A program made the position numbers and the translations under genes. The notes below the pieces were generated by a model. It did no database searches. It was not told the origin of the DNA and worked only from the letters and a program-made list of their open reading frames with translations. A stretch of 23,227 bases of DNA, from positions 1-23,227 of the IMG/VR virus record IMGVR_UViG_3300044954_000071. One strand, written 5' to 3'. This document shows positions 2,380 to 20,993 of the stretch, piece by piece. Source of the stretch: a virus. Numbering within the stretch: the stretch's first letter is position 1; every line of letters begins with the position of its first letter.

Positions 2380-3597
2380 TTATCCTATGTAAATACGCAA
2401 AGGCACTTTAGAAAGCATTTTTTGCATTTCATCACTTTCCTTGCCTTTATTTTCTAATTGATTTACACGCAAAGTTTTTTCCAACATATCTCTCAACTTC
2501 TCAAGCAATGTATCCTTTTCCTCCTTGGCTTCAGCCCGTAACTCCGCCCCATCCAATGTTACTTCACCACCTGGAATTGGTACGGTACTATATTTTTGAA
2601 GAATACGACCCAATGTTTCTTTGCAAAGTGCCAAGAAATACTTTTTAATCCATTGTTTACCGGCTTGATTTATCTTGCAATATTTACAATATTCATATGG
2701 TATATCACTAGGATCACTGATGTATTCATAACGAGAACCACTGGTAAAGTTTGTGATATTTTTATCACTTTCAATATAGTATTCAACCCAAACTCTTGTA
2801 TTTTCTGTTGGTATAGGAAATAGTCTCAATTGATTGTTACCTAACAACTCAAATCCGAAATGACTCTTACGAACCATATCATTGAACTCAATAGCTTGTA
2901 CTCTTTCTAAATCTTCGAATATAGGAGTCATCAAGAATTGTGTAGCCGGACTATAAGCACTAAATCCCATTTCTTGAAGTACATTACTATAACTCATACC
3001 GGTCATACTAAATGGGTCATAAATACGAGCAATAGCAGGCGGTCTATAATGAAATATTCTACGAACTTCAATTCGTGAACCTGTTATATGTTCAATATCA
3101 TTTCCAATTAATTGATTTAAGTTAAAGGTTTGATTTGTGTTTGATAAACTAGCAGTTATATCAAAATAACTCTTTCTAAGAGGTACTTCTCCGCCTACAA
3201 GTGCTTCACTACCATATTGTTTACTTAGTTGTACAACAAATGGTAAACCAGTGCCTTTAACTCCCAAACCAATTAAATTTTGATATTGATCTTGTGGTAA
3301 TCCTTGTACATTAATTAAGTTATTAACAATATTAAATTCGTTAATGACACGATTATATTCCAAGACAGATTCTTCAAAACATGCATAAAAATTGACATCA
3401 ATCATTTCAATGTCAACTATTGGATACCCCAATCTTTTTGCAGCCCACATAGCGCTACCACTACAGTCGTTTTCAAATGTAGATTCGCTTGCGGAACAGT
3501 CTTCGTTAAGATAATACCCGAAAGGTACACTGTCAGATGTTACAACACTGCCGCTTCCGGGCCATCTCACGCGATCTTGATCTAAATTAGCACTCAT
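2380..3597 (-). CDS. 13: Neck protein, T4 gp13-like
   Basis: This is a probable head-completion/neck protein acting at the portal after DNA packaging. The N-terminal third is specific to this phage group (Cys/Ser-rich around residues 30-50). Residues about 55-90 contain YPIVDIEMIDVNFYACFEES, matching the gp13 pattern of a hydrophobic strand followed by a helix with a conserved Tyr. The C-terminal quarter carries the most recognisable part: KQWIKKYFLALCKETLGRIL followed by VPIPGGEVTLDGAELRAEA and a charged helix. At 405 aa it is longer than T4 gp13 (about 309 aa). The start follows the exact motif ATATTTATAA by 3 bases, with no Shine-Dalgarno. The identification rests on the C-terminal pattern and on position directly before gp14 and gp15. 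Confidence 0.68.
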   Translation of the reverse strand: MSANLDQDRVRWPGSGSVVTSDSVPFGYYLNEDCSASESTFENDCSGSAMWAAKRLGYPIVDIEMIDVNFYACFEESVLEYNRVINEFNIVNNLINVQGLPQDQYQNLIGLGVKGTGLPFVVQLSKQYGSEALVGGEVPLRKSYFDITASLSNTNQTFNLNQLIGNDIEHITGSRIEVRRIFHYRPPAIARIYDPFSMTGMSYSNVLQEMGFSAYSPATQFLMTPIFEDLERVQAIEFNDMVRKSHFGFELLGNNQLRLFPIPTENTRVWVEYYIESDKNITNFTSGSRYEYISDPSDIPYEYCKYCKINQAGKQWIKKYFLALCKETLGRILQKYSTVPIPGGEVTLDGAELRAEAKEEKDTLLEKLRDMLEKTLRVNQLENKGKESDEMQKMLSKVPLRIYIG

Positions 3598-3600
3598 TAA

Positions 3601-3610
3601 TTATAAATAT
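3601..3610 (-). promoter_or_regulatory. Start-proximal motif ATATTTATAA, upstream of gp13
   Basis: The coding strand reads ATATTTATAA, then 3 bases, then the gp13 ATG (3597). The same 10-mer recurs before several other starts in the window. Its role is unproven: it could be an A/U-rich translation signal or part of a promoter. Confidence 0.5.
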
Positions 3611-3646
3611 CTTGTGGTTAAGATATATACTTTATAATCTGCCAAT

Positions 3647-4798
3647 TTAGTGTATTAATAACCAAGTTCCTATTACATCTGGTCTATTTGCACTTTCATC
3701 ACCATCCCCCGGTTTTACAATTACATTCCATTTTGGTTCTTTTCCAACAGGAATATTTTTCATTTCGTCGTAGGTAATAATGCTATCTTTAGAAACACTA
3801 TACTTTGTAGCCAATTTTTGTTTTAATGTATCTATAGCCTCAGGAGACTTAAATTGCATCTTGCCATCGGCATCTCTAACCAGCTTGCCACTATCATCCT
3901 TGAGGATCAAATCGGTAAACATTGGTTTTGGAACAACCGTTGAGTGTTTTGATGTTGCAAAGTTGATTTGTTTTTCTTGTTCTGGAGTTGCACCCATGCT
4001 AAAATTAATCAAGAAGTTTGATGGCTTTCGACCCAAAGAAACACCTGCTATCTTTGTATATGCATAAAAATCTACATTTGGAAAATCTCTAGCAACACTA
4101 TATGCTAAATCCACATATTCTGGGCTAAAGAAATCACCAGCATCGTGCCAACGAATTACAACCTTGGCGTCCTTCTTGGAAGACCTATTTACGGCAGATT
4201 GTATTTCAGACTCCAATTTAGCTTTAAATCCTTGTGGATTATTCAATAAAAAGTTCAACAATCTGGTTTGAGACATTGAACTTGATTTCCATTGTACATA
4301 ACCACCTTTTTTAGCATAACAATATACCTTACAAGCACCTGCGCCTGGACAAGTATCTACCACAACAAATTCTCCAGTCTTTTCGTTTACTGCTAGACCT
4401 TTAAGTGCTGATAATCCGATATTATAGAACATCAAATCTTGACCACCACTGTGTGAAATTTTCTCATTTTGTTTTAAAATCTTTTCTGGACGAGTTGTAA
4501 TAGCGGCCTTTAATTTATCCAAATCAAATTTACGATTATTTTCATCTTTGATTTCAATGTTGCCTCTATGTACATAGGGCATTGTATATTTATCTAATTT
4601 TGTCTTTTTACCAGATGCGGTTTTTGCAAGATATGCTTGCATTTCATCTGGGGTCATAGTTCTGGTAGTTGCACCCAACATATCTGCTTCATCCAACTCT
4701 TGTTGTACAAATTGATTCAATGAAACAACTGATGAAGCGGGCAGCCCTAGTCCTTCAAACATAGTAATTTCGTTTAGCAAATCTTTAAATTTAGTCAT
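3647..4798 (-). CDS. GP88-family protein with Cys cluster and capsid-targeting-like N-terminus
   Basis: Residues about 110-300 match what I recall of the phage 'Gene product 88' family, whose activity is unknown. Visible marks are VDTCPGAGACKVYCYAKK (Cys150, Cys156, Cys160), then a conserved helix with R and N residues. These are followed by VVIRWHDAGDFFSPEY (residues 213-228, with Arg216, His218, Asp219, Asp222) and FYAYTK. The close cysteines suggest a bound metal or iron-sulfur site, but this is inference. Residues 1-10 (MTKFKDLLNE) resemble the T4 capsid-targeting peptide, ending in L-N-E, a consensus site for the gp21 protease. The protein may therefore be packaged and trimmed. Coding-strand CTATTTATTTAAT precedes the ATG, with no Shine-Dalgarno. 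The gene lies between the cupin gene and gp13. Confidence 0.62.
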   Translation of the reverse strand: MTKFKDLLNEITMFEGLGLPASSVVSLNQFVQQELDEADMLGATTRTMTPDEMQAYLAKTASGKKTKLDKYTMPYVHRGNIEIKDENNRKFDLDKLKAAITTRPEKILKQNEKISHSGGQDLMFYNIGLSALKGLAVNEKTGEFVVVDTCPGAGACKVYCYAKKGGYVQWKSSSMSQTRLLNFLLNNPQGFKAKLESEIQSAVNRSSKKDAKVVIRWHDAGDFFSPEYVDLAYSVARDFPNVDFYAYTKIAGVSLGRKPSNFLINFSMGATPEQEKQINFATSKHSTVVPKPMFTDLILKDDSGKLVRDADGKMQFKSPEAIDTLKQKLATKYSVSKDSIITYDEMKNIPVGKEPKWNVIVKPGDGDESANRPDVIGTWLLIH

Positions 4799-4812
4799 AT
4801 TAAATAAATAGT

Positions 4813-5079
4813 TTATAATTTTGTTATTAGAACAATTAATTTCCCAGTTCCTTTTATTACACGATGATAAGTTTCTTTGGGTATAAAAAGTTTATCGTTC
4901 AACGGTTTTGGCAATTGATTGTCTAATTGAACTTGCCACCCACTATTTTCAACAACCTCTACAATACGATCTTCTTTATCAATGTGCCATTCCAATTCAT
5001 GTGTATCTACATCAACACTAAATTCTCTTATATACTGATTATTACCAACGGTTGTTTCTTTAAATGGTAAATCATTCAT
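4813..5079 (-). CDS. Small phage cupin-like protein
   Basis: From the ATG at 5079 this encodes 88 residues with a cupin-like small beta-barrel pattern. First motif: ELEWHIDKEDRIVEVVE (His32, Asp34, Glu36, Asp37). Second motif: LFIPKETYHRVIKG (His72, Arg73). Very similar small proteins are frequent in tailed phages and are usually unannotated; no activity is known to me. An in-frame ATG 45 bp further upstream (5124) would add 15 residues, but they overlap the beta-helix gene. Start 5079 forms the tight ATGA overlap (5079-5076) with that gene's TGA stop, so translational coupling is likely. GP88 lies 14 bp downstream. Confidence 0.68.
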   Translation of the reverse strand: MNDLPFKETTVGNNQYIREFSVDVDTHELEWHIDKEDRIVEVVENSGWQVQLDNQLPKPLNDKLFIPKETYHRVIKGTGKLIVLITKL

Positions 5080-6329
5080 TTGAATAAGTTCTTTATCCAT
5101 TCGATTAATCTTATAAACCAACATTTTTTCTTTGGTGGAATTGATATAGTAGATAAAAACTCATTATTTATCATTTTTATTTTATCATCACCCACGGAAT
5201 TCCCCCAAAAACAAAATAATTTTGTGCTTTCTTCGAATGCAGAGTTTAACTTACGATAACCTAACGTTACTTTATTTTTTGTTATTACTATATTTTTAAA
5301 ACCGGGATATTTGACATGATCAACATTAGGAGCGTTTACATATCCCACAAAATTAGAAACTATGGGTGGTTTGTTCCAATGCCAATAACAATCTCCTATA
5401 GAAAGATTGATTTTATTTTCATCAAGAACTAAATTTTTATTAAAACTTATTTGGTTAGAATTATCCCAGTGTTGACATGACATTTGAAGAAATTGCCAAA
5501 CATTATCGGCGGTATTATTTTTTATAATAAAATCTTCATTGGTCCAACTATCCATATAGATACATGAGCCTTGAAAATTAATAAAATTATTATCTATAAT
5601 TTTAGCATTTTTTGTATTTCCAATTGAAATTCCATGTAACGGACTTTGTTGATTTATAACATTAAAATCCATATTTTCAAATACATTACCTTTTACTAAA
5701 GTGTCTACGCCACCAACTGCGACAACTGTATTTTCGGGAACATGGTTAGTTGTGCTGTTAGATTTTCTTCCCGGCAATGTAAAATAATTATCAATTATTT
5801 GTGTTCCTCTACCATCATTGTTTATAGGTCCGATTATAATCTGAAAACACTCATGTAAGTCTTTAGAACCAACTCCAAAATTTATAAATTTACAACTTTT
5901 TACAATGTTATTTTCTCCTCTAATTCTAATACCCATCAATGTTGCGGTGCTTCTATTCTTTTCATAATTGCCGTCAAATGTTATACCTTCAATCAAATTA
6001 TCATCACAACTTTCATCCCAATTGGTTGTGACCATTACTATTACATCTTTTGGTTCATCAAACAAATATGCAGCATGACAATTGTCGATCCATTTTAATA
6101 TTGTTTTATCTCTACCTGTTCCGATTATTTTAATTTTATGTTTTCTATTCCACCCCCAACAAATACTACTATCACTCCATACATGGCCCAGATTCCAATT
6201 TTTATCATTTCTTCCGATAATATGAGTACCTTCACTTATGTAACATTCGCCTGTAAGATCTATACATTTATTAATATAGGGTGCAATATTTTCACCTAAC
6301 TTATAACCGTAATATTCTGGCGTATTCAT
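5076..6329 (-). CDS. Right-handed beta-helix (pectate-lyase-like fold) protein, possible tail spike
   Basis: This is a 417-residue protein when started at the ATG at 6329, which lies 5 bases after the stop of the preceding gene. A longer frame from 6398 would overlap that gene by 64 bp and adds an unrelated Gln/Arg-rich stretch, so I reject it. The body has repeated short turns typical of parallel beta-helices: NLIEGITFDG, NIVKSCKFINFG, TQIIDNYF, TLVKGNVFENM, AKIIDNNFINF, FIIKNNTADN, IVITKNKV and IKMINNEF, at roughly 22-30 residue spacing. This fold is used by phage tail spikes, polysaccharide lyases and epimerases. No catalytic residues can be assigned. The last 18 residues (KKKCWFIRLIEWIKNLFK) form a basic amphipathic helix that could bind membrane or partner. 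The gene is coupled to the cupin gene by an ATGA overlap. Confidence 0.65.
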   Translation of the reverse strand: MNTPEYYGYKLGENIAPYINKCIDLTGECYISEGTHIIGRNDKNWNLGHVWSDSSICWGWNRKHKIKIIGTGRDKTILKWIDNCHAAYLFDEPKDVIVMVTTNWDESCDDNLIEGITFDGNYEKNRSTATLMGIRIRGENNIVKSCKFINFGVGSKDLHECFQIIIGPINNDGRGTQIIDNYFTLPGRKSNSTTNHVPENTVVAVGGVDTLVKGNVFENMDFNVINQQSPLHGISIGNTKNAKIIDNNFINFQGSCIYMDSWTNEDFIIKNNTADNVWQFLQMSCQHWDNSNQISFNKNLVLDENKINLSIGDCYWHWNKPPIVSNFVGYVNAPNVDHVKYPGFKNIVITKNKVTLGYRKLNSAFEESTKLFCFWGNSVGDDKIKMINNEFLSTISIPPKKKCWFIRLIEWIKNLFK

Positions 6330-6334
6330 AAAAT

Positions 6335-6937
6335 TTACCAGTAAAGACCTTTGCCTTTGTTGCCCAGACTTTTGATTCTGTGACTGCGGCAACTCCAATA
6401 GCCAGCCGTTGTACGATCTTTCTTTTGGCTACATTTGTGTCTAGCAGCAAAACTTTTACGACGAGCTTTGCTTCTACCTCTTACTCTTAAATTTGGGTCA
6501 CCAAATGTTACTTTTTTTACATTCCCATTCTTAGATTTTACATACACCGCATACTTCTTTGGACCGCCTGGAGTTCTAAATGGACGATTTAGATGTACTG
6601 TGCGACCTCTGTGTTTGAGTTCCATCAATATATCTTCTTCTATTTCAATAGGTGTATCCAAATACACTTCTCTGCCTTCAAAGATTTCTTTTTTACCCAA
6701 ATCACTCTCCACCAATTCAGCATCTGGATCACACAATTCAATTTGGTTGTTGAAATATAAAGTACGAACTTCTTCCAACAACTCAAAATAACTGTCGCTA
6801 TAAGTTCTAAAAATGTTTTCACTTAATGGTATTTGTTTTTCTAAGTGATATTTCAAATTGTCACTCACCAAAACATTTTGCAATAAATACATCGGACACA
6901 ATTTATCACTTTCTAGTAAATCTTTGAATCGTATCAT
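6335..6937 (-). CDS. Conserved T4-like phage protein with basic C-terminus and capsid-targeting-like N-terminus
   Basis: The C-terminal 90 residues belong to a family I recognise from many large tailed phages but cannot name. It contains LNRPFRTPGGPKKYAVYVK, then VKKVTFGDPNLRVRG, KARRKSFAARHKC and TTAGYWSCRSHRI. This half is strongly basic (Arg/Lys/His) with two or three conserved Cys/His positions and could bind DNA or RNA. The N-terminal half is acidic and helical. Residues 1-9 are MIRFKDLLE, close to the GP88 protein's MTKFKDLLNE and ending in an L-x-E site that gp21-type proteases cut. It may be an internal head protein. The start follows the motif ATATTTATAA by 3 bases; that motif overlaps the stop of the upstream lipoprotein gene (TAT-TTA-TAA). 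Confidence 0.65.
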   Translation of the reverse strand: MIRFKDLLESDKLCPMYLLQNVLVSDNLKYHLEKQIPLSENIFRTYSDSYFELLEEVRTLYFNNQIELCDPDAELVESDLGKKEIFEGREVYLDTPIEIEEDILMELKHRGRTVHLNRPFRTPGGPKKYAVYVKSKNGNVKKVTFGDPNLRVRGRSKARRKSFAARHKCSQKKDRTTAGYWSCRSHRIKSLGNKGKGLYW

Positions 6938-6940
6938 ACG

Positions 6941-6950
6941 TTATAAATAT
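6941..6950 (-). promoter_or_regulatory. Start-proximal motif ATATTTATAA, upstream of the conserved basic protein
   Basis: The coding strand reads ATATTTATAA, then CGT, then ATG (6937). The last codons and the stop of the lipoprotein gene lie inside the motif, so it cannot be free intergenic filler alone. Confidence 0.5.
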
Positions 6951-7870
6951 TGTCCGTATTTGTTTACTGCTTTTAATTCTCCAATTAATATCTTTTCATT
7001 GGAATTCATATTTTTATCTAACTCAATAAACACGTCGTTTAAAGTAACTTGTGAATTTGATCGTTTTTGTATAGTTTTCAAACTCTCAAGTGTGTCAACT
7101 ACCACATCTAATGTGTCTTTATATCTATTGAATGTTGGTAATTCTATATGACTGCTAAATTCAAGAGCTTTTGGTGCGATACCCTTCAAAATATTTATAA
7201 TTGTGGCAACTAAATGTTCTACTATAGAAAATATAGCCCCAGCAATAGGATTTGTTGCGGCAGCAAATCTTAATACCACAAACAACACTAAAAATATTAG
7301 TATTCCAGTAACTCCAATAGTTACAAATCGTTTCAATCCGTACATTACACCACCAAGACCCATCCAACTATTAACCTCATCCACAGTTACTTGTAATGCA
7401 TCCGCTTTTTTCGCAACTTGTGTAGCTTGTGTTTCTAATCCTTTTATTTGAGTTTCATATTTGTCTTTTATTTCTTTTTCTCTGGTTTGAAGAGATAAAA
7501 TTTCTTCATCCTTATCTTTTAATAATTTTATACCCGTTGATTTTTCTTTTTCAATTTCACTATTTAATAAATCTGTAATTTGTTTAATTTTATTTAACTC
7601 GTCAACATTAGGATTGCCAGTTATACTCAATATTCTACTATTAAAATCTATTGCTGTCTTGACTTGAACCGGCGGATTTGTTACGGATTTTAAAGAATAA
7701 TCAGTGCCAGCTGCTAAAGTAGATACTGTTTGTAACTTTTCTCCATCATTTTTAGCCCTTTCAACTCTGGTTTCAGCCAAAACATTTTTTGTTTTTTGAA
7801 CTTTTTCTACATTTGGTGTCTTGCAGCTTGTAAGAAAAACAAGGGCAAATATATATATAATATTTCTCAT
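6941..7870 (-). CDS. Phage lipoprotein with coiled coil and internal transmembrane segment (possible spanin-like or envelope protein)
   Basis: Residues 1-16 (MRNIIYIFALVFLTSC) are a signal peptide with lipobox L-T-S-C, predicting lipid attachment at Cys16. Residues about 93-165 are charged and heptad-like (coiled coil, e.g. EILSLQTREKEIKDKYETQI). A strong hydrophobic segment lies at about 183-203 (VTIGVTGILIFLVLFVVLRFA), followed by a Gly/Ala/Ile-rich stretch to about 235 and a soluble charged tail to residue 309. Two membrane anchors separated by a coiled coil recall unimolecular spanins, which fuse the membranes at lysis. In those, however, the membrane segment is at the extreme C-terminus; here about 105 residues follow it. 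The start follows ATATTTATAA by 3 bases. It is divergent from the Mom-like gene across 65 bp. The topology is well supported, the function is not. Confidence 0.6.
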   Translation of the reverse strand: MRNIIYIFALVFLTSCKTPNVEKVQKTKNVLAETRVERAKNDGEKLQTVSTLAAGTDYSLKSVTNPPVQVKTAIDFNSRILSITGNPNVDELNKIKQITDLLNSEIEKEKSTGIKLLKDKDEEILSLQTREKEIKDKYETQIKGLETQATQVAKKADALQVTVDEVNSWMGLGGVMYGLKRFVTIGVTGILIFLVLFVVLRFAAATNPIAGAIFSIVEHLVATIINILKGIAPKALEFSSHIELPTFNRYKDTLDVVVDTLESLKTIQKRSNSQVTLNDVFIELDKNMNSNEKILIGELKAVNKYGQYL

Positions 7871-7935: not shown

Positions 7936-8706
7936 ATGACAGAGTATTGTGATACTTCATTAATTTATTTACACAGTATCAATAAGAATGTTGCCAAAAC
8001 ACTTATTGAAACAAATCACTATACACACAAGTGGACAACTTGCACAGTTGCTTATGGAATTTATTATAAACATTTTCCGGAAACTAGTTTTTTCGGTGGC
8101 TATGATAGTAAATTAATCGGTGTACTTGTATATGGAAATGCAGTTGGGCGTAATGCAAGTACTAGTATAAGTTCTTTATTGACTAATGATAATGTATTGG
8201 AACTTACCAGATTATGGATTGCAGATGGATATGGTAAAAATATCGAAAGTTATTGTATAGCTGAAAGTCTAAAACATCTTAATCAAGATTATCCGCAAAT
8301 AAAATGCATACTCAGTTATGCAGATAGTGAAGCCGGTCATTGTGGAACAATATATCAAGCAACTGGCTTTATATATCAAGGAGATAATTATGTAGATATT
8401 GCGTTAATGCCCAATTATAGTGTCAGTTTATCAGGCCCACCAAATTATGATTGGATACACAGTAGAAGCGTATATGCTAGATGGAAAACGCATAGTGTAG
8501 ATAAATTAAAAGAACGAATTGGTAGAACTTTTTGGCGCAAACGAGAAAGTGGTAAACATCGTTATATCAAGTTCATAAGCAATAAAATAGAAAATAAAAA
8601 ACTTGTCAAATCACTAAAACATAAAGTTCTTCCATACTTAAAAAATACTTCGTTTAAAGAAGAAGTGCAAGAAATTTTTGTTGAAAATAATAACCAATTT
8701 TTTTAA
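7936..8706 (+). CDS. Mom-like DNA adenine modification protein (GNAT-related fold)
   Basis: This resembles the Mom family: phage Mu Mom converts adenine to a methylcarbamoyl derivative and shields phage DNA from host restriction. Visible family blocks are an N-terminal LIETNHYTHKW (residues 23-33) and LIGVLVYGNAVGRN (60-73). These are followed by the acceptor-like block LELTRLWIADGYGKNIES (88-105), then IKCILSYADSEAGHCGTIYQ (122-141) and ATGFIYQG (142-149). The last block, with its S-Y-A-D and G-T-I-Y-Q-A-T/S-x-F pattern, is the most diagnostic. About 75 basic residues follow the core (R/K-rich from 176 on) and may bind DNA. It is one of only three plus-strand genes, and it converges on the nuclease-methyltransferase gene with a 17-bp gap. 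No GATC lies in the 65-bp upstream region, so the Dam control known for Mu mom is not evident. A weak TTGAAG (7902) / TATTAT (7924) pair lies upstream. Confidence 0.72.
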   Translation: MTEYCDTSLIYLHSINKNVAKTLIETNHYTHKWTTCTVAYGIYYKHFPETSFFGGYDSKLIGVLVYGNAVGRNASTSISSLLTNDNVLELTRLWIADGYGKNIESYCIAESLKHLNQDYPQIKCILSYADSEAGHCGTIYQATGFIYQGDNYVDIALMPNYSVSLSGPPNYDWIHSRSVYARWKTHSVDKLKERIGRTFWRKRESGKHRYIKFISNKIENKKLVKSLKHKVLPYLKNTSFKEEVQEIFVENNNQFF

Positions 8707-8723
8707 TTAAATATTAATATTGT

Positions 8724-10736
8724 TTATATTTTAACAATCAATTCGTTTTTCAACCCGACATTACTGTCAAAATGGCTTCTATTGGATGCAATATAGGCAT
8801 CAATATGTTTCATATCTAATTTTGTGGCTAATTCTTCAGATATGTTGATATAACAATTTTTACCACGATATCGTTCAAATGATTTTATAAATGTATTTTT
8901 CCAATGATCAAAAGACTGATATTCCATATTATTGCTATATAATTCCAAATCATAATATGGTATGCTGGTAAAAATCAGGTCATAGTTATAATTTTCATCT
9001 TTGAAATCTTCAAATTTAGAATTATATATTTGAACGTGTAAATCATTCCAACCTGCATTTTCCTTTAATTGTAATAACTCATTGTATGTTTCTATATTTG
9101 GTTCACATCCAATGTATATTCCGTTTGGATACATAGATTTGAATCCCAATAATCTGCCACCAAATCCACAACATGGATCCAATACCATAGGGGTTTGATT
9201 GTCACCTAGATAATGTTTATATATAGCAGCGGCCAACAACGGTTTAAAAAATGAAACGGTTGTTCGTCTAGCAGACAAACCATTTATCAAATTTCTCAAG
9301 CTAAAATCAAATATTTCGTTTGAATTATTACATCCAATTCTATATTTGATTACTTCATTCATAATAGACTCGTTTGACCAAGCCTCTATTGGAGACATAT
9401 TATGTTTATATTTACTCTTCCAATATGAACGGAAAATGTGTTTCAAATAATTGTGTCCAATTGTAGATATATTATTTGAAAATGTCCGCACATTACCATC
9501 ATAAATTCTATCAAATGTATAATTGTGTATTGATGACAAAACCACATTCAAATCCTCATTCAGTAGAGGATACGGAAAATCCGGATGGAAATTTTTTATG
9601 AATTTTTTGAGCAACCATACAAATGATTCAACATATGGTTTTCCTTTTGAATCGATAGAATTTTTAAAATAATCTTTTTGTATAACAACATCGTCGTATT
9701 TTAGAGATAAATCGTTGATTTTATTATATTGTTTTATGTTTTGAATCAAAGTTTCTTTGTCTGTTGATTTATCTATCACGTTATTTAAATCATCTGATCT
9801 AATTCTGTATAGATTTTTAACCGCGTCATTTTTCTGTTTGTCGGATATAACACTTGATAATAATTTAAAATTTAAACCGTTTAATTGATCCGGATGCCAG
9901 TATGCTCCGTCTATTTCAACACACATATCATGTTCGGTTAAATAAAAATCAATAGACATATCTCTGTCATCTTTTGTGATTATGTATGGATGTTTGTATT
10001 TAATGCCCAATTTATTTAATATTGACTCAAATAATAACTCCGGTTCCGTATCAATTGTTTTTATATTTGGATTTTCCGAAAATCGTTCCACTGCACTCTC
10101 AGACATTTTTTTTACTGATAGTTTATCATGCGACTTTCCATACATAGGATTATTAACTCCAACAGAATTGTGTCCAGTCACATATTCTACTTTATATGGA
10201 TAGTAGTTTATCAATTTAACCTTTTTACCACATCCACAATTACAAAGTGGATGTTCATTTTTAAAAACATACTCCCAAATATATTTATCTTTTTCTAAGT
10301 TATGTATTTTTTTAATATGTCCACCCAACAATTTACCAGAAGCAAATTGGTCACCACATATCAAACAAACATGTTTGTCTTCTTCATTTAACCCCAATAA
10401 TCTATCTGTATATTCAATTTCTCTCAGTTTTGATGGTCTATATTCACCAAATTGATTAACATATTTTTCAACAGACATATCGTGACTATCTCTTAAATGT
10501 CCATAAAAACCAACACTAGCATATTCATTATTACAAATTCCACATTTTATTTTTTTAATATTTCGTTTTTTTATAGTTATTTTTGATTTTCTAAAAGTAC
10601 CATATGTTTTTTCATATTCATCCGCAGAACTATCGTGTGTCCATTTCAGATGGCCTGAAAAACTATATAGAGATATACTCTTTCCACATATATCACATTT
10701 TTTTAACGACGGTTTATTGACAACAATTCTTTTCAT
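8724..10736 (-). CDS. Zinc-finger / NUMOD3 / EDxHD-like nuclease fused to a DNA methyltransferase
   Basis: This is a 670-residue multidomain protein. Residues 14-145 hold three C2H2 fingers of the form C-x2-C-x11/12-H-x4-H (Cys14/17-His29/34, Cys65/68-His80/85, Cys124/127-His140/145). Residues 165-169 read C-x-C-x-C, followed by a NUMOD3-type DNA-binding motif NNPMYGKSHDKLS (195-207). Residues about 230-325 look like an EDxHD/Vsr-type nuclease: EPELLFESILNKLGI, then SIDFYL, CVEIDGAYWHP, an SDKQKNDAVK helix and YRIRSDDL. Residues about 343-670 resemble a phage DNA amino-methyltransferase: GLSARRTTVSFFKPLLAA, motif I DPCCGFGGRLLG (520-531) and motif IV TSIPYYD (590-596). Motif IV is normally S-P-P-Y; here Pro is replaced by Ile. 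A longer frame starts at 10787, but the start at 10736 has TATATTTAT just upstream and a normal N-terminus. The gene lies downstream of the capsid terminator. It could be a homing enzyme or a self-contained restriction-modification protein. Confidence 0.7.
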   Translation of the reverse strand: MKRIVVNKPSLKKCDICGKSISLYSFSGHLKWTHDSSADEYEKTYGTFRKSKITIKKRNIKKIKCGICNNEYASVGFYGHLRDSHDMSVEKYVNQFGEYRPSKLREIEYTDRLLGLNEEDKHVCLICGDQFASGKLLGGHIKKIHNLEKDKYIWEYVFKNEHPLCNCGCGKKVKLINYYPYKVEYVTGHNSVGVNNPMYGKSHDKLSVKKMSESAVERFSENPNIKTIDTEPELLFESILNKLGIKYKHPYIITKDDRDMSIDFYLTEHDMCVEIDGAYWHPDQLNGLNFKLLSSVISDKQKNDAVKNLYRIRSDDLNNVIDKSTDKETLIQNIKQYNKINDLSLKYDDVVIQKDYFKNSIDSKGKPYVESFVWLLKKFIKNFHPDFPYPLLNEDLNVVLSSIHNYTFDRIYDGNVRTFSNNISTIGHNYLKHIFRSYWKSKYKHNMSPIEAWSNESIMNEVIKYRIGCNNSNEIFDFSLRNLINGLSARRTTVSFFKPLLAAAIYKHYLGDNQTPMVLDPCCGFGGRLLGFKSMYPNGIYIGCEPNIETYNELLQLKENAGWNDLHVQIYNSKFEDFKDENYNYDLIFTSIPYYDLELYSNNMEYQSFDHWKNTFIKSFERYRGKNCYINISEELATKLDMKHIDAYIASNRSHFDSNVGLKNELIVKI

Positions 10737-10807
10737 CACTACATAAATATACACGATGTAGTAAGAAAAATCAATTATTTTTAGCATACCTCATTGTGGT
10801 GAAGTAT

Positions 10808-10837
10808 AAAAAAACCCCAACTTTCGTTGGGGTTTTT
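10808..10837 (-). terminator. Intrinsic terminator after the major capsid gene
   Basis: On the coding strand the stem CCCCAAC and its complement GTTGGGG (10832-10815) close a GAAA tetraloop, followed by seven T (10814-10808). Five A precede the stem. The stem is fully paired, and it lies about 25 bp after the capsid stop (10862). The plus-strand reading also ends in five T, so it may work both ways. It separates capsid transcription from the nuclease-methyltransferase gene. Confidence 0.92.
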
Positions 10838-10861: not shown

Positions 10862-12697
10862 TTATACGGTATCGAGATCGCCGATAATAACTTTTCCATA
10901 GAATTCGGGGCGGACTACCTTCTTAGCGTAGCGGGTCATTACGCCTCTACGTGGTGTGAAGTTAGTTGGGTCGTAGACCAAAGGAGTTTGGATGAGTGGG
11001 ATGTATGGAGCATACACAGCACCGGTTTCGAGGAAGTTATTTCCACGGAAACCAACCAATACAATGTTATCGGTCATATATGGGTTCTTGTAGACTTGGA
11101 AGCGACTTGCGAAGCTACCAACACGACTTACACCCATTGCGAACTTGGCTTGGTCGCCGTCGGTGTTAACAACATATCCTGGGATTGATTCCAAGATGGT
11201 TGCTACATCTGGGCTTACGACCAAGAAGTTTGCACCACCACGGAGGGTCAATTTTTGGATTGTGTTACTGACCTTTTGGATCTTGTTACCGAGGGTTTGG
11301 AACCAAGTACTCTTGACATAAGCAGTACGATTTGGTGAACTGTTTGCATTACGTGTGAAGCTAGCTTGACCTGTTGTTGCATTAACAGACTTGCTAAATT
11401 CGACACCGATATCAGCACTCCAAGCTTCTGTTGTAGCGCCTGTTACAGCGTTGTTCAACATGTCTAGGATTTCGAGATCGATTTCCATTGATACATATTC
11501 GCTCAAGAGAGCAGTAAGTTCTGCTTCTGCATCAATTGAGTGATATGCATTCAAGTCTTGGGCCAATTCTGGAGTCCAGACAGCCTTCAACTTACGTGTC
11601 TTGGCAACGATAGGTTCGCTATTGAGTACCAAGTTGACTTCAGGAATACTGATATCTGTATCAATACTTTGTGTAGCAACTGCGTTAGCATTGCCGGAAC
11701 CTTCACCAGCTGTCTTACCAGCTTCGAAGTCACCACGGAGATTGTCAGTTGGTTGAAGAGTATAGACTAACTTAACTTTATTACCTGCACCAGCAAACGC
11801 GGAATTAGATGCGGATACGATGTATACTGTTTGATAGAATGGGTTAGCATTGCTACCTGTATTTAATACTCTGTTATATGTGTTTAATACCAAAGCACTA
11901 CTTGCGAGTGATGCTGGTTGATTTGCACTTGAACCTGTGATCAAGTTGAACGAACGAACTGCATTCAAATCAATATTCCAAGCATAACCGTTAGCTGCTG
12001 TGGTATTTGATTGTGAATTATCATCGTGATTCAAGATAACCTTGAACAATTTATTGTTAATAACCGATTGGCTTAATTCAGCCGCGAATTGAACATCGTT
12101 CCAAGAAGCGGATTGAATTGTGTTACCGGTAGCAGTTCCACTTGCATTTTTTGTTAATGTAATTGCTGAACTTGTCAATGCACGACTTGAATAAGCATAA
12201 GCACCTTGACCGTAGAGACCTTTCACAGCATCATCTGTGGAACCGAATTTTTTGCCGTTACCACCGAATAAACTGTCGTTAAGTTCTTTACCAGCACGGG
12301 TTGTCTTGCTACTACCGTTGTTCAAGTTACGAAGGTCTTGACCAGGAGCGGTTGTACCATACTTGAAATCTAAGTAGAAGATAAGACCGCTTGGGAGATT
12401 CATTGGTTGTACACTAACGAATTCCTTAGAAGCGATTTCAGCGAATACACGACGAACCAATGGAAGAGCAACACCGGCCCATTGTTCTGAGCTTGTGCTG
12501 GTACCAGTTGTGGTAGCTTCGTCTAAGAGTTGCTTTGCTTGGTTTTCAAGCAAAATACTCATGTGGGCTTTTTCAAGACCTTGGCATCCTTCTAGGAGGC
12601 CTGTCTTTGCCCACTTTGTTTGTAATCCACGGGTTTCAGCCATCAATTTGGCTTGTGGATTCATATTATTTGTCAATAATGATTTAATATCACTCAT
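10862..12697 (-). CDS. 23: Major capsid protein, T4 gp23-like
   Basis: This 611-residue protein forms the head lattice. The N-terminal region (1-60) is helical and charged, like the T4 gp23 pro-region. It ends in QLLDE (56-60), an L-x-E site, so gp21 should cut after Glu60 and leave a mature protein of about 551 residues. Residues about 70-110 carry the family signature: ALPLVRRVFAEI, then VSVQPMNLPSGLIFYLDFKYG. The C-terminal part contains FLVVSPDVATILESIPGYV and TPLVYDPTNFTPRRGVMTRY, both typical of gp23. The mid-section (about 115-360) is long and rich in Ser, Asn, Ala and Thr, probably the insertion domain. A strong Shine-Dalgarno (AGGA, 12708-12705) sits 7 bases before the ATG. It follows the scaffold gene by 44 bp and ends at the intrinsic terminator, so the pair forms one late unit. 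Confidence 0.95.
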   Translation of the reverse strand: MSDIKSLLTNNMNPQAKLMAETRGLQTKWAKTGLLEGCQGLEKAHMSILLENQAKQLLDEATTTGTSTSSEQWAGVALPLVRRVFAEIASKEFVSVQPMNLPSGLIFYLDFKYGTTAPGQDLRNLNNGSSKTTRAGKELNDSLFGGNGKKFGSTDDAVKGLYGQGAYAYSSRALTSSAITLTKNASGTATGNTIQSASWNDVQFAAELSQSVINNKLFKVILNHDDNSQSNTTAANGYAWNIDLNAVRSFNLITGSSANQPASLASSALVLNTYNRVLNTGSNANPFYQTVYIVSASNSAFAGAGNKVKLVYTLQPTDNLRGDFEAGKTAGEGSGNANAVATQSIDTDISIPEVNLVLNSEPIVAKTRKLKAVWTPELAQDLNAYHSIDAEAELTALLSEYVSMEIDLEILDMLNNAVTGATTEAWSADIGVEFSKSVNATTGQASFTRNANSSPNRTAYVKSTWFQTLGNKIQKVSNTIQKLTLRGGANFLVVSPDVATILESIPGYVVNTDGDQAKFAMGVSRVGSFASRFQVYKNPYMTDNIVLVGFRGNNFLETGAVYAPYIPLIQTPLVYDPTNFTPRRGVMTRYAKKVVRPEFYGKVIIGDLDTV

Positions 12698-18023: not shown

Positions 18024-20993
18024 CTATTCTTTTATATTTGTTTCGTCCATGAACGATTTTTCATCTCCTTCTTTCAAAATCGACTTTTCTTGTTCCACAG
18101 TATTTAATAAATCTTTTAATCCATCTAACGTTTCCAACGACAGTGGAGATTTCTTTTTATACTTGTGAGTCACGGATAAATCGGATTTTCTATTATTTTC
18201 TAATGTTCCCAGTGGATCTTCACCAAATGGATAATCACTGGCTTTTTTACGACCTGTTTGATCTCTTTCGGTTAACTTGGGATTTTCTTCACCGGCTCTA
18301 GCTTCGCCACCACCCGATTTTTTACTTTCTCCACCGGTTTCACCACCGGTTGGCTCACCACTTGCAGGTTCACTTTCACCGGTTAGATCAACTCCGCCGC
18401 CAGCTTCTCCACCGGCTCCGGCACCACCTTCTTTATCTTTTGACTTTAAAAATACTAGCGCGGGGTCATTACCTTCATCCTCAATTTGCTTAAACCTATA
18501 AGATCCCTTGGCATCATCAAAAAGTTGTTTTTGTAATTCAATCATGTCTTGGTCACTCATACCAAATACATTTTCATATACCCATTTCTTACTAAACAAC
18601 TTTTGTTCAGCCATGTCTTTGCTAACCTCAACCTTGCTCTTCCATACATCAATCTTTTCTTTTTCAAATATTGTAGAAGGATTGGTAAGTTCAAGACTAA
18701 AATCAACCAACGATTCATCTCTATATCCTTGACTATATAAGTGAACCACAGCAATCTTGTTCAATTCACTAACAATAATACGTTGTACACGTTGAATAGT
18801 ACGTGCAAAACGAATATCTTCTGCTGCCAACGTTGCTTTGCCAGAAAGCGATTCATCATAACCCAAGAATGCCTTTGGAATTTTGAGTGCTGCCATCATT
18901 TTGTTTCGTAGATATTCAATATCGTCTGTACCAGTCCATTCCAGACCAGGCAAGTTATCAATACTGGTTCCGCTGTCTCCACCACGAACTGGCAAGAAAA
19001 TGTCTTCAACCATGTTTTGTAGATTGAAACGAAGGTTGTAGTCACCTGTGTTTTGATCCAAATATGGAGTTTTCTTCATTTGTTGAATGATGCGATCTAC
19101 GTGATTATCAACTTCATTTGGAGGAATATTACCAATATCAATCTTGAATATTCTCTTTTCTGGAGCACGCATGATACGATGAATTAACATTGCGTCTTCC
19201 ATCAAACTCAATTGTTTCCATACACGACGTGCGCCTTCTAATATACTCTTACCATATGGCAAGAAATTGCTATCACTCAACAATCTAAAATGTGCTATTT
19301 GATAATTTTCACATTCCTCGATTTTATTTCCATATGGCAAATTAACTTGGAATTTAACAAAATTTTTATTTGTTAAATGTGCATTTTCAATACGAGTAAC
19401 ATAATAGCTGCTAAGGGGCTCTACCATGTATACACCATATTCTGGACTGATGTACAATCTCATATAAAAATCACCATATTTAACCAAACTACGAGTCCAA
19501 CTCCAAAGGTTGAATTCGATATTGAGAATGTCGTAGAACAAGTTGTTTAAGATGTTTTTAATTTCATCGTTGTTTGAACGAACTGCGATTACATCACCCA
19601 TCTCATTTCGTGTAGTACATTCGTCCGCATAAATGTCCAAAGCAGATGCCAAAATTGGGTCCATGTCCATTGTATTTGAAACGAAACAACTATCTGTTGC
19701 AAAATTTTCGTATTTTTCGACAGTAACATCATATACATCAACTTCACCGATCTGTTCTATTGATACTATTTTATGGTTTAATGTAGAAACCACTTCATTT
19801 TTGAATGATTTCCAATCGTGTCCTTCTTTTTTGAGACGATTTTGTAGAGTTGACTGATCACAATTAATATGTGCAATAAAATCCCACAAATTAATTTTTG
19901 AATATTCTTTATAGTATTCAAAAGCTTTTTCTTTTACATTCTCAAAAGTAACATCATGACGATATTTTGGATTTTTAATATCCGTTTGATCTCTATCCTT
20001 AAATGTTTCTTTTAATGTAGAATATCGTTTTTCATTGGATTCGTCGGAACGAGTTTTTCCGTAAAATGGGTTATTTTTCTCAGAACGTTCTCCATCCCAT
20101 CTGTAAAACTTTCTGTTGATATAACTTGGATGCGATTTTAACTTATTAAGTTGATTTTGATAATTATTATCTCCCCACAGTATATTTTTATTATATTCAC
20201 TGTGATATTTTTTGTGTTCTTTCCAATCCATTATGAGTAGATTGTCCGGAGAATTATTGGAACCATTTATATCTAAATGATGAACCACTTCATTTTTTCC
20301 AAGTGTTCTGTAAAATTGTTCAGCTACAATTTTATGTTCACTTTGCCATCCTTTTGAAAAATTGTATAAACGACGATATCTTTTAAATCCATGTTTTTTA
20401 TAGCCATATCCTTTCTGATAAAATGGCATTATAGAATCACCAACTCGGAGTTCAAATGTTCTTTTATATGTACCGTCCCTCATCATAAATGGATGTTTAA
20501 GACTCGCTATAATATATTGTCCGTTGTCAAATGTAACTTTATATCCTTGTCGTTTTCCACTTTTCTTTCTCGGATGATAAGCTTTTCCTAGCTTAATACT
20601 GTCAGTTTCGTGGTCATACGAGAATACATAAAATCTTTCTTGTGGTTTATCTTTATATTTCTCAGCAAGTTCTGCTATTGTTGGAGTTGTTCCATCAGGT
20701 AACGGAACAATCGTATCTGGCCCCACGCAATCATAATCTCTGAACAATTCAATACGAGCTGCTTGATAACTAAGTGTAAAATCTCTATTATATTGATTAT
20801 ATGCACTGATTCGTATACGGTCAAATCGATCTCTTAGAGTATTACGATCTGTAGCATACATTACCTCGTCTGTATCTACTATTTTTAACTTCTTACCACC
20901 AATATTACGAACTATTACATCGGTGGAAAACATTCGTTTTAACCTTGAATACAAGGAACGTTGTTTCAATATTTGAAATTCTTCTGATGGCAT
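18024..20993 (-). CDS. 20: Portal protein, T4 gp20-like, interrupted by an in-frame intein
   Basis: The portal is the dodecameric ring through which DNA is packaged and on which the neck assembles. The 989-residue precursor contains a 352-residue intein at residues 89-440; removing it leaves 637 residues. Portal-specific blocks after the intein are TMDMDPILASALDIYADECT (441-460), WSWTRSLVKYGDFYMRLY, IMRAPEKRIFKIDIGNIPPN and VEDIFLPVRGGDSGTSIDNL. LRNKMMAALKIPKAFLGYDE then completes the gp20 pattern. The C-terminus has a Gly/Glu/Ser-rich low-complexity tract (about 860-915) and a charged tail. The T4 tail sheath and tube genes, which separate gp17 from gp20 in T4, are absent between TerL and this gene. 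The start follows ATATTTATA by 8 bases. Confidence 0.93.
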   Translation of the reverse strand: MPSEEFQILKQRSLYSRLKRMFSTDVIVRNIGGKKLKIVDTDEVMYATDRNTLRDRFDRIRISAYNQYNRDFTLSYQAARIELFRDYDCVGPDTIVPLPDGTTPTIAELAEKYKDKPQERFYVFSYDHETDSIKLGKAYHPRKKSGKRQGYKVTFDNGQYIIASLKHPFMMRDGTYKRTFELRVGDSIMPFYQKGYGYKKHGFKRYRRLYNFSKGWQSEHKIVAEQFYRTLGKNEVVHHLDINGSNNSPDNLLIMDWKEHKKYHSEYNKNILWGDNNYQNQLNKLKSHPSYINRKFYRWDGERSEKNNPFYGKTRSDESNEKRYSTLKETFKDRDQTDIKNPKYRHDVTFENVKEKAFEYYKEYSKINLWDFIAHINCDQSTLQNRLKKEGHDWKSFKNEVVSTLNHKIVSIEQIGEVDVYDVTVEKYENFATDSCFVSNTMDMDPILASALDIYADECTTRNEMGDVIAVRSNNDEIKNILNNLFYDILNIEFNLWSWTRSLVKYGDFYMRLYISPEYGVYMVEPLSSYYVTRIENAHLTNKNFVKFQVNLPYGNKIEECENYQIAHFRLLSDSNFLPYGKSILEGARRVWKQLSLMEDAMLIHRIMRAPEKRIFKIDIGNIPPNEVDNHVDRIIQQMKKTPYLDQNTGDYNLRFNLQNMVEDIFLPVRGGDSGTSIDNLPGLEWTGTDDIEYLRNKMMAALKIPKAFLGYDESLSGKATLAAEDIRFARTIQRVQRIIVSELNKIAVVHLYSQGYRDESLVDFSLELTNPSTIFEKEKIDVWKSKVEVSKDMAEQKLFSKKWVYENVFGMSDQDMIELQKQLFDDAKGSYRFKQIEDEGNDPALVFLKSKDKEGGAGAGGEAGGGVDLTGESEPASGEPTGGETGGESKKSGGGEARAGEENPKLTERDQTGRKKASDYPFGEDPLGTLENNRKSDLSVTHKYKKKSPLSLETLDGLKDLLNTVEQEKSILKEGDEKSFMDETNIKE
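19674..20729 (-). mobile_element. Intein with HNH homing endonuclease and NUMOD3 motif, in the portal gene
   Basis: This element encodes portal residues 89-440. The first residue is Cys (CVGPDTIVPLPDGTTPTIAE, block A). Block B is IIASLKHPFMMRDG (162-174) with the usual His. Block F is VYDVTVEKYENFAT (420-433) and block G ends DSCFVSN, so the last residue is Asn440 and the first C-extein residue is Thr441. The penultimate residue is Ser, where His is usual. Between the splicing halves are an HNH endonuclease (EVVHHLDINGSNNSPDNLLI and MDWKEHKKYH, 235-265), a NUMOD3-like motif (NNPFYGKTRSDESNE, 307-321) and a helix-turn-helix-like part (about 350-390). The insertion lies exactly before the conserved T-M-D-x-D-P-I, rejoining as RDYD-TMDMDP. 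Splicing is inferred, not shown. Confidence 0.92.

Follow-up and report, generated by a model that had tools for sequence, protein, structure and literature searches.

The window analysed here is the whole of a 23,227-base viral record, whose minus strand carries, among others, T4-like terminase, portal, capsid and neck genes. Between the major capsid gene and a Mom-family DNA modification gene lies one minus-strand frame, 8724-10787(-), which is unbroken and encodes 687 aa. The later of its two candidate starts, the Met at 10736 (670 aa), appears likelier than 10787, because a sigma70-like site (10774-10746) lies immediately upstream. This site, TTGATT-17-TATATT, has 9/12 matches and is on its own no better than chance; insert promoters across the family of fusions described below are good in some members and at chance level in others, including the window. 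Features are collected in Table 1, and residue numbers refer to the 687-aa frame.

Table 1. Features in and around the post-capsid insert of the window
Feature	Position	Strand	Basis or remark
Major capsid protein gene (T4 gp23-like)	10862..12697	-	phrog_138, 1.5e-69
Terminator hairpin behind the major capsid gene	10810..10837	-	Common to empty-site relatives
Inserted cassette, ~2.1 kb	8704..10808	.	Delimited against the empty L096 site; accurate to within a few bases, since the ends fall in T/A runs
Promoter-like site TTGATT-17-TATATT, within the insert	10746..10774	-	9/12 consensus positions
Fusion ORF	8724..10736	-	670 aa; zinc fingers, NUMOD3, EDxHD nuclease and methyltransferase; alternative start 10787, 687 aa
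Three C2H2 zinc fingers	10302..10697	-	Sequence; Pfam zf-C2H2_4, 4e-6; helices and strands in the model
NUMOD3 DNA-binding motif	10101..10160	-	PF07460, E=0.0056, under the Pfam curated cut-off
EDxHD/Vsr-like nuclease core (predicted)	9762..10055	-	E250, D280, E291, D293, H298, D316
Amino-methyltransferase (predicted)	8727..9755	-	N-terminal helical part (345-480), then Rossmann domain
Methyltransferase motif I, DPCCGFGGR	9153-9179	-	Within the fusion ORF
Methyltransferase motif IV, TSIPYYD	8949-8969	-	Within the fusion ORF
Mom-family DNA modification gene	7936..8706	+	PF25680, 6e-44; other side of the insert

Profile and fold searches bore out the domain content that the initial annotation had read from this single frame, namely three C2H2 fingers, NUMOD3, an EDxHD/Vsr-like nuclease and a methyltransferase. 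By sequence, the finger residues are C31/C34/H46/H51, C82/C85/H97/H102 and C141/C144/H157/H162, and the protein also holds a Cys cluster. Chance domain matches were ruled out by these searches, and because the entire domain order is kept in 24 distinct fusions.

The window protein matched Vsr profiles (Pfam, 3e-4; TIGR00632, 1.5e-5), and a nuclease profile of 23 family members matched the catalytic domain of I-Bth0305I (3r3p) at 5e-6. Since a fold search with the whole model returned mostly methyltransferases, the nuclease domain was predicted alone (pLDDT 83). Its top Foldseek match was I-Bth0305I (3.9e-4), and VIA-align ranked Vsr (1cw0) first (Z 8.0) and I-Bth0305I third (Z 7.0). The predicted structure thus has the Vsr/PD-(D/E)XK-like fold that had been proposed for the nuclease core. 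Among the 23 family members, D280, D293, H298 and D316 are invariant, and E250 and E291 nearly so. As modelled, the nuclease is EDxHD/Vsr-like, with I-Bth0305I and Vsr as its nearest solved structures. The very-short-patch repair endonuclease Vsr, which in E. coli acts beside a methyltransferase (Dcm), shares the fold but is a separate mismatch-repair protein, neither mobile nor fused. I-Bth0305I shares both fold and residues, but it is intron-encoded and has no reported methyltransferase, whereas the window gene is free-standing and fused. With EDxHD homing endonucleases the window protein further shares extra DNA-binding modules for long targets (PMC3943268).

The other half of the protein matched PHROG 12517 (4e-7) and PADLOC mad2 (2e-9). 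PF01555 was not reached by the window protein; it was reached by two fusions of the same methyltransferase family to other nucleases (L018, 9e-8; L211, 1e-8). In the whole-protein model (pLDDT 86), the C-terminal domain matched class I amino-methyltransferases with Z 12-14, and its solved structural neighbours include the RNA enzymes METTL5 and Trm11. Motifs I and IV are kept across the aligned fusions, in which the second position of motif IV is I (T in L014), not P. The C-terminal domain is therefore a predicted DNA amino-methyltransferase of class I fold, with motif I and motif IV. The frame stops ~75 aa past motif IV, and no separate target-recognition domain was assigned there; the N-terminal helical part or the zinc fingers might take that role.

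Type IIG/IIC enzymes likewise place a nuclease N-terminal to an amino-methyltransferase within a single chain, and this likeness, together with the resemblance to mad2, favours one-chain restriction-modification. The fusion would then methylate many short sites in the genome and destroy unmodified co-infecting phage or host DNA, and its capsid location would be incidental. Unlike Type IIG/IIC enzymes, the window fusion has zinc fingers and NUMOD for targeting, lacks a recognised target-recognition domain after the methyltransferase, and has a mobile, single-site location.

Searching IMG/VR with the family alignment, with methyltransferase patterns and with one nuclease pattern yielded 51 ORFs with both domains, or 23 clusters at 95% (24 counting the window). 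Two full-protein pattern scans of viral contigs returned no relatives, probably because those patterns came mostly from the variable N-half, and no relative was found in bacterial genome contigs with the patterns used. A 484-kb huge-phage record encodes a full-length homologue with 39% identity; there, too, the gene follows the capsid gene, separated from it by one other homing gene. With 24 distinct intact fusions in phage contigs and none split, a fusion derived from sequencing or assembly was ruled out. No stand-alone gene occurs among the closest methyltransferases (E<1e-60 to the fused-domain profile), and the two that lack a nuclease are contig-end fragments. The suggestion that a homing nuclease had invaded a methyltransferase gene is not supported as a recent local event, because both domains are present in 24/24 members and nucleases of several unrelated kinds are joined to members of the methyltransferase family; the sequences clearly point to an ancient nuclease-methyltransferase fusion. 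Where it could be measured, both halves are under purifying selection: dN/dS between L009 and L187 is 0.08 for the N half and 0.11 for the methyltransferase, and 0.10-0.28 in other pairs without saturated synonymous sites. One allele of the L012 fusion, in L013 and L182, has a frame that starts 204 nt later and has lost the first finger; it is possibly a decaying copy.

The fusions occupy a preferred position. Twenty-one of the 24 share the strand of the major capsid gene and begin 54-236 nt downstream of it (75 nt in the window, to the longer 687-aa frame), and 23 lie in the post-capsid region. Three depart from the close spacing: L200 begins at 970 nt, L002 is separated from the capsid gene by another homing gene, and L197 lies elsewhere. 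The L197 fusion (3475-7073) sits beside a gene that, judged by eye, is tail-tube-like, and the ORF upstream of it resembles, also by eye, TnpB/IS605 OrfB.

We surveyed this slot by scanning with the window capsid protein, taking as close relatives those with 70-88% capsid identity. The gap is empty in seven genotypes (L096, L099, L101, L106, L107, L108, L110), where 52-63 nt separate the capsid gene from Mom; it holds a GIY-YIG-type homing gene in two (L098, L112) and the fusion in three (window, L009, L203). In more distant relatives the slot contains GIY-YIG-like genes (L119, L144) or EDxHD-GNAT homing genes (L126, L135). The window and L096 agree up to the terminator T-run (~10808) and again from the last Mom codons (~8704). 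The intervening ~2.1 kb, 96% of which is the fusion ORF, begins directly after the terminator T-run. The L009 insert, unlike that of the window, sits upstream of the terminator and therefore looks like a separate insertion event. The records searched for the empty-site phages are fragmentary, and no fusion turned up at any other place in them. A comparable arrangement exists in T4, where the homing gene segD sits between genes 23 (capsid) and 24 (PMC2988022) and so occupies the place behind the same gene as the window fusion. The T4 free-standing homing genes (seg, mob) are likewise small intergenic cassettes by conserved genes, present or absent among relatives (PMC2988022), but they encode GIY-YIG or HNH nucleases without a modification domain. 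In L093, the post-capsid slot holds a GIY-YIG-like ORF (150-818), and a small stand-alone EDxHD-like ORF (2058-2600) lies further on.

These observations bear on the possibility that the fusion belongs to the phage's resident genes, passed on together with the capsid operon and by now serving a non-homing role such as regulation of capsid expression. The post-capsid position holds over capsid identities down to 38%, as such inheritance would predict. Against it stand the empty sites in close relatives, the differing insertion points, the rival homing genes in the slot, the strong constraint on the nuclease and the transfer between phages described next, and we regard it as very improbable.

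The fusions of L009 and L187 are 87.9% identical (aa), compared with 66% for their capsid proteins and 53% for the next gene, and DNA identity between the two climbs at the cassette edge and drops sharply behind the cassette. The cassette thus moves between phages, out of step with its flanking genes. A second candidate case, L187 and L188 (identical fusion, 90% capsid protein identity), was dropped, as the two are near relatives with one divergent capsid stretch.

Comparison of the halves of the protein pointed to exchange between them as well. Between the window and L009, identity is 87% for the capsid protein, 21% for the DNA-binding part, 31% for the nuclease and 64% for the methyltransferase domain. 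In L010, the DNA-binding part is of one group's type and the nuclease is closer to the other group. Nuclease identity showed no correlation with methyltransferase identity across all pairs (rho -0.05), and in the methyltransferase tree one common clade for the B-type N-termini is rejected, if modestly (p-AU 0.027). These data show that the nuclease half has been swapped against the methyltransferase half. If the methyltransferase is kept while the DNA-binding half swaps, either both activities use that half or the methyltransferase has its own specificity; the first would favour protection of the target site, and the second a general protective passenger. The swapped N-terminal halves provide matched enzymes for asking whether cutting and methylation share a target.

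The same data weigh on one-chain restriction-modification. Restriction predicts no fixed slot, yet nearly all of the fusions start just behind the capsid gene, where GIY-YIG and EDxHD-GNAT homing endonucleases occur as well. The nuclease groups with I-Bth0305I and Vsr, and zinc fingers with NUMOD are characteristic of homing enzymes that recognise long targets. Moreover, exchange of the DNA-binding half with retention of the methyltransferase would break a matched pair unless targeting is shared. We therefore consider restriction-modification unlikely.

The empty sites, the rival homing genes in the slot, the transfer between phages and the module swapping together support the identification of the fusion gene as a free-standing homing endonuclease gene, of which we are confident. 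The initial annotation had suggested a self-protecting homing enzyme that modifies sites it has already colonised; the homing part of that proposal stands on this evidence, and we infer the self-protection part. For the combined description, a free-standing EDxHD homing gene whose protein carries a C-terminal DNA amino-methyltransferase marking its target, our belief and doubt are evenly balanced.

In this proposed mechanism, a co-infecting relative would carry a long target that lies within the 3' end of its capsid gene or close to it; the zinc fingers and NUMOD3 would bring the enzyme there, the EDxHD domain would cut that relative's DNA, and repair from the carrier genome would copy the ~2.1-kb cassette into the gap. 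With less confidence than we attach to these homing steps, we propose that carrier genomes escape cutting because their target is marked by the methyltransferase, as N6-adenine or N4-cytosine. That methylation shields the element's own target is plausible, with doubt slightly outweighing belief. Ordinary free-standing homing endonucleases owe their immunity to sequence differences or to an intron. With its target marked, the enzyme could instead aim at a sequence common to donor and recipient; the window element would bring its own immunity and need no target difference. Over the last 600 nt of the capsid gene, no fixed difference separated the three carriers from the empty sites, and just 2 bases of L009 were absent from the empties, which agrees with a marked target. 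Immunity through substitutions private to carriers at this 3' end was accordingly set aside, a result that is suggestive only. Three considerations weigh against self-protection: the insertion, or unseen differences in the target, could itself give immunity; ordinary free-standing homing genes manage without a methyltransferase; and the solved neighbours of the methyltransferase include RNA enzymes. That cutting and methylation read the same site is an assumption, no target-recognition domain having been assigned to the methyltransferase.

Free-standing homing genes face self-cutting when their target is a conserved neighbouring gene that the insertion leaves uninterrupted. A built-in methyltransferase would be a general answer to this problem, and would link selfish homing genes to restriction-modification. 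With empty, rival and fusion alleles next to one and the same capsid gene, the slot offers a ready natural experiment.

The methyltransferase could also be a helpful passenger of a homing endonuclease, guarding the whole phage genome from host restriction and unrelated to the homing site. Such protection would pay for keeping the element, relatives of the methyltransferase occur as separate genes in many phages (L019-L087, Vibrio and Bacteroides phages), and module swapping suggests independent halves. Yet none of the closest methyltransferases stands alone, and a Mom modification gene is already resident in the phage group of the window. We judge this explanation, too, improbable, if somewhat short of implausible. 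The Mom-family gene adjoins the capsid slot in many relatives, including empty-site ones, and the group therefore probably carries modified adenine.

Members of the same methyltransferase family are joined to other homing-type nucleases elsewhere, a recurrence that speaks for the homing reading. In L006 (2988-6677), L211 (3116-4996) and L212 (3211-5088) the methyltransferase is fused behind LAGLIDADG_2 domains, and in L211 a second LAGLIDADG ORF adjoins the fusion gene. L018 (5414-7201) has the reverse order, with NUMOD4-HNH_3 at the methyltransferase C-terminus. In L208 the family is joined to HNH_repeat with a weak PDDEXK match, and in L216 (3948-5783) to a TnsA-like nuclease domain, directly behind a capsid gene. 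Proteins of the PHROG 3339 type, with a zinc finger, an EDxHD/Vsr-like nuclease and a Mom-like GNAT, occupy the post-capsid slot in L126 (1797-3326), L135 (6729-8252) and L002 (10148-11860). The GNAT end of PHROG 3339 aligns with Mom at an hhalign probability of 91.5%, versus 0.1-1.8% for unrelated controls.

The PHROG 3339/559 'homing endonuclease' families probably correspond to the REase-Mom fusions that Iyer et al. (2021) described from jumbo phages and interpreted as pairing restriction with modification (PMC7824862), a reading that lends restriction-modification some support by analogy. These are the nearest precedent for the window fusion: they too are single chains that join a Vsr/EDxHD-like nuclease to a DNA-modification domain, and in the three genomes just named they sit in the same slot behind the capsid gene. 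They differ in that the Mom-like GNAT transfers an acyl group rather than a methyl group, and in having been described as restriction-modification, not homing (PMC7824862). In phage ShiLan, an HNH homing nuclease gene is likewise physically combined with a DNA methylase gene, but it is inserted out of frame inside the methylase, whereas the window has two domains in one protein; the 2025 paper on this element states that a strong association of HNH enzymes with methylases is not yet known (PMC11855218). We found no earlier report of a methyltransferase-homing endonuclease fusion in the open literature, most subscription journals being outside the scope of the search.

We tentatively suggest, with more doubt than conviction, that modification-coupled homing endonucleases form a general class, in which unrelated nucleases (EDxHD, LAGLIDADG, HNH, TnsA-like) independently gained a DNA-modifying domain. 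The added domain would be this methyltransferase family or a Mom-like GNAT, and each element would mark what it has colonised, which we hold equally tentatively. If so, homing elements and one-chain restriction-modification would be two ends of one continuum. The 'nuclease + modification' proteins of large phages also gain a testable mobile-element reading.

Two further features of the window were observed away from the slot. The T4-like portal gene (18024-20993) carries an in-frame intein bearing HNH_3 and NUMOD3 motifs, and a 'Gene product 88' homologue (PF17338, 1e-30) lies at 3647-4798.
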